Positions 14,462 to 15,856 of a stretch of 64,000 nt of DNA are shown here, in pieces. The notes beneath the pieces are model-generated. The model was not told the DNA's origin. It did no database searches and saw only the letters and a program-made list of their open reading frames with translations. This stretch comes from Methanocaldococcus sp. FS406-22 (GTDB lineage: Archaea; AGJL01; Methanococci; Methanococcales; Methanocaldococcaceae), in assembly GCF_000025525.1 (NCBI RefSeq), contig NC_013887.1, forward strand, positions 1,250,729 to 1,314,728. The letters run 5' to 3'. A program made the translations under genes and the position numbers. The stretch's first letter is position 1; each line of letters opens with the position of its first letter.

Positions 14462-15520
14462 ATGAACAGAATAGGGATTTTATTAATTTTATTCATCCTC
14501 TCATTAATATTGCCTTTTACTGCATTATACATTGGTGGAAATGCAAAATCAATAACATTGGAGGATGTGAGTAATTTTTTATTGAAGGGAACTACTGGAA
14601 ATGAGTTTAAAGATATGTTGTTGAGAGATATTAGACTGCCTCCAATAATTGGAGCGGTTCTTATTGGATTAACTATATCTGCAGCAGGTTTAATGCTTCA
14701 AACGTTATTTAGGAACTTATTAGCATCTCCATACACAACTGGAATATCGTCTGGAGTTTTGATGGTTGTTGCATTGGTTATATTTATAGATTCTCTCTCA
14801 CATCTGTTTGAGATTTTTGGAGAAAATAGCATTTTAGTTGCTGGTTGGTGTGGAGGAATTTTTTCAATGATTTTGCTAATTATCATTGCCTTGAGAGTTA
14901 GAGAAGCGAATGGAGTCATAATTGTTGCTTTATTGCTAAGCTATTTCTTTATGGGTTTGAGGGCATATCTCATCGCAAATGCTGAAGAGTTGAAGATTCA
15001 AGAGTATTGGGGATTTACAATTGGTTCTTTATCTAAGATAACTTTGGGAGACATTATGCCAATGACAATCTGCTCAATCATATTTATTATTGGAGTTATG
15101 TTTTTAATAAAATCTTTAAACGCTCTATTGTTTGGAGAGCAGTATGCGAAAAGTTTTGGGTTAGATATAAAAAAGACGAGAATTTTAATTTTATTCTTTG
15201 CATCATTTATAACTGGAGCTATAATTCCTTACGTAGGTTTAATTGCATTTATTGGGATAATTGCCCCATATTTAGCACGACCCTTAATAAAAACCTCTGA
15301 CCATAGATATTTAATGCCAGCAACAATGCTTTTAGGCGTTATTTTAATGGTTTCATGTCATATCCTTTCATTGAAATACTATCTTCCAATCCACTACATC
15401 TATGGAATAAATAGACCTGCCTCTCCTCTTCCTATTGGAGCAGTTTTAGATATATTAGGAGGTTTATTGGTTGTATATTTAGTCTATAAAGGAGAAAAGA
15501 AAATAAAGATTGACCATTAA
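14462..15520 (+). CDS. FecCD/BtuC-type ABC permease 2
   Basis: Second permease subunit, 352 residues, with the same family features: IRLPPIIGAVLIGLTISAAG near the N-terminus and GLIAFIGIIAPYLARPL near residue 265. The ATG follows the stop of permease 1 immediately. It probably pairs with permease 1, the ATPase at 15857-16981 and the lipoproteins at 11886-13133 and 17145-18320. A stable hairpin (15531-15552) begins about ten bases after its stop and may end the transcript. Confidence 0.9.
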   Translation: MNRIGILLILFILSLILPFTALYIGGNAKSITLEDVSNFLLKGTTGNEFKDMLLRDIRLPPIIGAVLIGLTISAAGLMLQTLFRNLLASPYTTGISSGVLMVVALVIFIDSLSHLFEIFGENSILVAGWCGGIFSMILLIIIALRVREANGVIIVALLLSYFFMGLRAYLIANAEELKIQEYWGFTIGSLSKITLGDIMPMTICSIIFIIGVMFLIKSLNALLFGEQYAKSFGLDIKKTRILILFFASFITGAIIPYVGLIAFIGIIAPYLARPLIKTSDHRYLMPATMLLGVILMVSCHILSLKYYLPIHYIYGINRPASPLPIGAVLDILGGLLVVYLVYKGEKKIKIDH

Positions 15521-15529
15521 TTATTAACA

Positions 15530-15808
15530 AGCTCCGGTGCTTTAGCACGGAGACAAATATTTATCGCAAGTGTTCAAGTCCATATCAATTTCTAAACCGA
15601 AGTTCGGGCAAATGAAGATTTCTCATGCCATTATATCCTAACGACCGAAAAGTTCATGAATAAGAAGTAGCATACAAACTTTTCGAAGGCCACCTGACCT
15701 GGCCTGATGAACATAACCTGCCCGATGACTCCTCGGCGACGGGGACGGGAGGGTGTTCCCTAGGGGAACCTCCGCCCTTTAGGCAGAGAGGAGGTCAGTA
15801 ACAGAGCT
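15530..15808 (+). mobile_element. Decayed IS605/TnpB-like relic or structured GC-rich RNA
   Basis: A 336-nt intergenic region far richer in G+C than its surroundings, especially 15690-15800. Two hairpins with a CTTTAG centre are visible: CTCCGGTGCTTTAGCACGGAG at about 15531-15552 and CCGCCCTTTAGGCAG near 15772-15786 followed by GAGGAGGTCA, which resembles right-end/guide-RNA hairpins of archaeal IS605 elements as I remember them. A third stem, GTTCCC/GGGAAC, lies near 15754-15768. Plus-strand frames, with stops and frameshifts, give TnpB-like pieces such as VRANEDFSC, NDRKVHE and TGTGGCSLGEPPPF. The minus strand near 15620 also reads CPNFGLEIDMDLNT, zinc-ribbon-like, so orientation is uncertain. 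No intact transposase remains. An unrelated stable ncRNA is possible. Confidence 0.5.
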
Positions 15809-15856
15809 TATGCACTTTATATGATTTGAAATATATTTATCACTACAGAAATCCAC

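Follow-up and report, generated by a model that had tools for sequence, protein, structure and literature searches.

HgcC as the likely omegaRNA of a divergently encoded archaeal TnpB subfamily, with an orphaned solo copy in a Methanocaldococcus-like genome

A GC-rich island between a permease gene and an ATPase gene, in a 64-kb stretch of a Methanocaldococcus-like genome (hereafter the window), is a solo copy of an element carrying the RNA gene HgcC. This element is an internally deleted, non-autonomous (MITE-like) member of the archaeal IS200/IS605 superfamily (IS605/IS1341-type). We consider it very probable that HgcC is the omegaRNA of a divergent TnpB subfamily, made from a promoter of its own, and that the window copy is a deleted orphan. 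HgcC as an RNA family is already known, as is the superfamily of the element, and the function of HgcC was termed 'still unresolved' in a 2017 genome paper (PMC5732400). The link between HgcC and TnpB, and a divergent guide RNA decoupled from its nuclease gene, were not found in the literature searched.

The initial annotation had pointed to an unusual base composition, and indeed the 150-mer at 15666 has the highest GC content in the whole 64 kb (0.567 versus a mean of 0.331). It had also entertained a new non-coding RNA family and advised a scan of Rfam including the Hgc families. That scan matched HgcC (RF00062) at 15685-15811 with 90.6 bits and E 2e-19 over model positions 1-130, well above the gathering cut-off of 50 bits, and the proposal of a new family is rejected. 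HgcC was the single non-tRNA match in the Rfam scan of the whole window, and other Rfam families gave only chance-level snoRNA and miRNA scores at this site. The island is not a chance match, since HgcC scores E 2e-19, a second copy is 97% identical and dozens of homologues were found. A nifH-like gene is also present in the window.

The features of the element and its immediate surroundings are as follows, in window coordinates:

15510..15514 (+): TTGAC target motif (TNAC), in the final permease codons; the same TTGAC stands at the empty site of L060
15515..15798 (+): solo HgcC element from left to right end, 284 bp; second copy 97% identical, site empty in relatives
15532..15552 (+): left-end hairpin with CTTTAG loop, CTCCGGTGCTTTAGCACGGAG; from the sequence and homologous left-end hairpins in other copies
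15560..15622 (-): tnpB 3' end remnant (zinc ribbon/RuvC-III), about 60 bp, antisense to HgcC; from tblastn and reading frame
15685..15798 (+): HgcC RNA scaffold, the proposed omegaRNA; Rfam 90.6 bits and structure analysis
15687..15705 (+): stem 1, AGGCCA/TGGCCT; compensatory change relative to copy 2 (AGGCCG/CGGCCT)
15694..15699 (+): pseudoknot strand CTGACC, in the loop of stem 1; pairing analysis
15755..15769 (+): GUUCCC/GGGAAC hairpin, GTTCCCTAGGGGAAC; structure analysis
15770..15788 (+): right-end hairpin with CTTTAG loop, CTCCGCCCTTTAGGCAGAG, part of HgcC; two-sided changes in 6/8 pairs across copies
15793..15798 (+): pseudoknot strand GGTCAG, the final six bases of the element; pairing analysis
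15799..15814 (+): putative flank-encoded guide position, TAACAGAGCTTATGCA; conservation stops here in all copies

The three hairpins listed in the initial annotation lie at 15532-15552, 15755-15769 and 15770-15788, with CTTTAG common to the first and third. Its limits, 15530-15808, enclose a real feature but coincide neither with the element (15515-15798) nor with the Rfam match (15685-15811).

The limits of the element were set by aligning the window copy with the second copy in the same genome (L003, C1:48546-48835), which is 97% identical over 290 bp. In the relatives G003 and G011 the insert is absent and the permease and ATPase genes abut directly, the empty site in G011 reading ...GATTGAC and then at once TATTAA.... 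The insertion that gave the window copy therefore took place on the 3' side of TTGAC, in the end of the permease coding sequence, and the final codon and stop of the permease gene now come from the left end of the element. The element is likewise absent at the site of copy 2 in G004 and G008, and in G004 the sequence picks up at ATTACAATCC, one base past the right end. HgcC homologues occur in other archaea; the insert at this site is missing from close relatives. The bases preceding the left end in 21 copies are TCAC (14), TTAC (5) or TGAC (2). About 55 bp to the right of the window element (15799-15853) and about 40 bp to the left of copy 2 (L114) are also absent from relatives, and because of this additional lineage-specific sequence just one clean junction is available per site. 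On either side of copy 2 lie ATTACAAT repeats, and at the same place G007 (L115) carries an unrelated insert with a flank duplication of ~30 bp. Of the nine differences between the window element and L003, HgcC holds eight and the remaining 170 bp one (Fisher p 0.003), a skew that would fit exchange or faster change of the RNA part.

Subterminal hairpins at both ends and insertion 3' of a short motif characterise the IS200/IS605 superfamily, and this element has both; the hairpins at 15532-15552 and 15770-15788 form the subterminal pair of an element of the IS605 type. Its host genome (1.77 Mb) holds nine TnpB genes and one Y1 TnpA. The sole Y1 TnpA sits in the L009 element, whose ends resemble those of HgcC elements, and a search for a Y1 TnpA inside HgcC elements found none. 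The comparison with IS605 copies in this genome that had been suggested at the outset bears out the similarity of ends, but the canonical tnpB genes lie in sense orientation whereas those of HgcC-type elements are divergent.

Weak HgcC matches elsewhere were set aside. L051, L077 and L084 are left-end or end-only sequences and not HgcC, as is probably the match in G003:C66; L077 and L084 (1561-1615) are ~50-bp elements in which the left end runs straight into the GGTCAG of the right end and no RNA gene is present. The matches L004-L008 (G000:C1 440262, 760276, 917875, 989778 and 830948) are not further copies of HgcC and instead form a separate group of five near-identical ~340-bp MITEs, all 3' of TTAC, which hold the sense 3' end of an L009-type tnpB (VVPNPERGRDSGLGNPWRVRVLNPLLS) and, past the left hairpin, a promoter-like AATTTTTATATA. 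These MITEs are solo canonical omegaRNA copies.

Support for the predicted HgcC structure is comparative. Taken by itself, the window copy has an unremarkable folding energy (z -1.6), and this non-significant score was set aside as evidence. Across 36 aligned copies, by contrast, two-sided changes occur at 11 pairs of the structure versus a shuffled mean of 5.0, and 93% of cells are paired versus 36-55% when the structure is slid along the alignment. Examined copy by copy, stem 1 shows compensatory change in every case, the pair of copies within this genome being one of them. The CUGACC of the stem-1 loop complements the GGUCAG at the 3' end, and RNAalifold recovers this pseudoknot unprompted. 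The pseudoknot is 99% paired with a single two-sided change (UUGACC/GGUCAA in L137); the near-invariance of both strands, the 3' one being at the same time the transposon end, explains why there are no more. Conservation ends right after GGTCAG in all copies. Like an omegaRNA, HgcC has a scaffold that stops at the right end of the transposon, a putative guide position in the flank and a stem 1 with a loop-to-3'-end pseudoknot beside that position.

In other genomes HgcC adjoins a tnpB gene on the opposite strand. Locus L031, for example, runs from a left hairpin through a reversed tnpB and a promoter region to HgcC with the right hairpin. When this TnpB was used as query, every match of at least 43% identity over at least 200 residues was divergent from an adjacent HgcC; these pairs come from Methanocaldococcus, from a second family of the order and from a MAG of the Archaeoglobaceae. 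G003:C66 holds an 89-residue C-terminal TnpB fragment that lacks a proper HgcC. Further TnpBs accompanied by HgcC came from a scan of named genomes, in Methanophagales, in a MAG with a bacterial label and in an archaeal fragment. The MAG labelled 'bacterium' (AUK014, L138) holds an archaeal HgcC-TnpB pair, reflecting either transfer or a mislabelled bin. Taken together, and with the four loci of the test below included, 12 of 12 well-covered TnpBs of the subfamily (at least ~38% identical to it) are divergent from an adjacent HgcC. As an out-of-sample test a TnpB profile was run against 345 genomes from the phylum of G042, and four new loci scored at least 426 bits, followed by a gap down to 209 bits. 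The prediction held in every instance: an Rfam-identified HgcC lies divergent and ~50-100 bp upstream in 4/4 new TnpBs, one of them identical in sequence to the locus from Methanophagales, and the Rfam scan found HgcC beside none of 12 lower-scoring TnpBs (209 bits or less).

The TnpBs of this subfamily, nucleases related to Cas12, retain the RuvC residues D174/E259/D338 and the zinc ribbon, match Pfam TnpB models and, in a profile search against structures, correspond to Cas12f/TnpB with Cas12f as the best PDB match (E 1.2e-36). Their dN of 0.14 against a dS of 1.5 indicates that they are under purifying selection. The HgcC family is thus linked to a TnpB with an RuvC DED triad, of which the window copy has a remnant only. 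No HgcC overlaps a tnpB 3' end on the same strand, tnpB being divergent in all intact elements.

The remnant in the window (15622-15560, minus strand) reads EIFICPNFGLEIDMDLNTCDK versus IFVCPKCGLEIDRDLNASINIA in intact TnpBs (tblastn E 0.003). The zinc-ribbon-like fragments in the initial annotation, which had also called for a TnpB similarity search, are therefore remains of a reversed tnpB: the window keeps the minus-strand 3' end of the C-terminal region, antisense to HgcC. Deletion accounts for solo copies, as one orthologous insertion with both flanks in common occurs with tnpB (L052) and solo (L033). Two HgcC insertion sites are apparently common to G004 and G013 (L032/L048 and L033/L052), and the L048 copy has decayed across its 5' half. 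The window copy is an orphan in its present host, because a cognate TnpB is missing from this genome, where the nearest is 30% identical. An omega-RNA-like IS605 end or orphan guide RNA, the main reading first offered for the island, is the best supported, on the strength of the ends, the TNAC insertion, the tnpB C-terminal remnant and the stem and pseudoknot beside a putative flank-encoded guide. The RNA is, however, most likely a separate divergent transcript at the right end and not a sense tnpB 3' end.

A TATA-like box lies at -29 to -34 of HgcC in 27/37 copies. In the window copy and its twin the box is absent at the usual place, the best match being 6/8 at -55. Because of this displacement and a fold z of only -1.6 the window copy may be silent, or it may use another start.

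A full element comprises, in order, TNAC, the left-end hairpin, tnpB on the bottom strand, a divergent promoter, HgcC on the top strand, the right-end hairpin with GGTCAG, and the flank. The HgcC transcript would start at its own promoter and read through the right end into flanking DNA, which would supply the guide sequence, and stem 1 and the CUGACC/GGUCAG pseudoknot would anchor the RNA within TnpB the way their counterparts do in ISDra2. TnpB would then cut TNAC plus guide, that is, the empty donor site, so that the element persists; the TNAC flank of the copies is consistent with a TAM-like role. The window copy, having lost tnpB except for about 60 bp, would be movable only by TnpA in trans. 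The comparisons above show where the element begins and ends, its homology, the divergent linkage to tnpB, the RNA structure and the origin by deletion, while RNA binding, guided cutting and mobilisation in trans are inferred.

Could HgcC instead be a regulatory RNA, exerting antisense or translational control over tnpB or tnpA, with TnpB using a conventional omegaRNA derived from its mRNA? Adjacency and divergent arrangement would fit this as well, yet we regard it as improbable. The usual 3' omegaRNA is missing from HgcC-type tnpB genes, whose 3' ends show no excess structure (fold z +0.3 to -1.9) versus -2.0 to -4.6 at the 3' ends of the eight canonical TnpBs of this genome; in L031 the tnpB stop codon abuts the left-end hairpin and leaves no room for one. 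Moreover, HgcC lies at the right end, has the flank 3' of it and possesses the omegaRNA stem and pseudoknot. That the feature is simply a canonical IS605 right end, its sense tnpB overlap decayed beyond recognition, has next to no likelihood: canonical elements do share the right-end hairpin and their omegaRNAs give weak HgcC scores, but the orientation of tnpB, on the opposite strand in intact full-length relatives and on the minus strand in the window's own remnant, already contradicts it.

Domestication of solo copies as host RNAs kept for a host function would account for the persistence of HgcC without a cognate TnpB in G000, G011 and G007, and for a stem 1 that stays paired while changing between the two copies here. 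We nonetheless judge it very improbable given that the insertion is absent at this site in close relatives, that copies decay (L048, L038) and are scattered in their insertion sites, and that the promoter of the window copy looks displaced. Solo copies greatly outnumber those bearing tnpB, so they may have some other role.

If a subfamily of TnpB does use HgcC as its omegaRNA, an orphan non-coding RNA family is explained, its solo copies are candidates for guide RNAs, and TnpB would work with a guide that does not derive from its own mRNA, which is a step otherwise tied to Cas12. More tentatively, and with the odds against it, HgcC elements may be RNA-guided nuclease systems whose guide has been freed from the nuclease mRNA, such that one TnpB serves in trans many guides from scattered solo copies, each set by its own insertion site. 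Were this multi-guide reading true, the arrangement would be of the kind expected en route to CRISPR-Cas12.

Among known systems the closest parallel is ISDra2, whose omegaRNA has a 116-nt scaffold with stem 1 at its 5' end and a pseudoknot that links the stem-1 loop to nucleotides -5 to -3, adjacent to the guide (PMC10097598). HgcC (115 nt) has the same topology, its scaffold likewise stops at the right end with the putative guide coming from the flank, and a TNAC-like motif stands at the left end where the TAM stands in ISDra2. A canonical omegaRNA of this genome (L009) can pair in the same manner, UGGCA with a terminal UGUCA, as judged by eye. Unlike the ISDra2 RNA, HgcC neither overlaps tnpB nor is co-linear with it and has its own divergent promoter upstream of tnpB. 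Elements of the IS1341 type (tnpB only) and MITE/PATE derivatives share the subterminal hairpins, TNAC insertion, presence of TnpB only and short solo derivatives, but in HgcC elements tnpB is reversed relative to the strand of the right-end RNA, unlike in IS200/IS605 and IS1341-type elements. The window sequence at 15685-15811 matches the HgcC model over its whole length, and the RNA is here the right-end RNA of TnpB elements. As in Cas12f, the proposed guide RNA is separate from the nuclease mRNA and contains a pseudoknot; unlike Cas12f, HgcC elements have no CRISPR array or tracrRNA, and the guide would come from the transposon flank.
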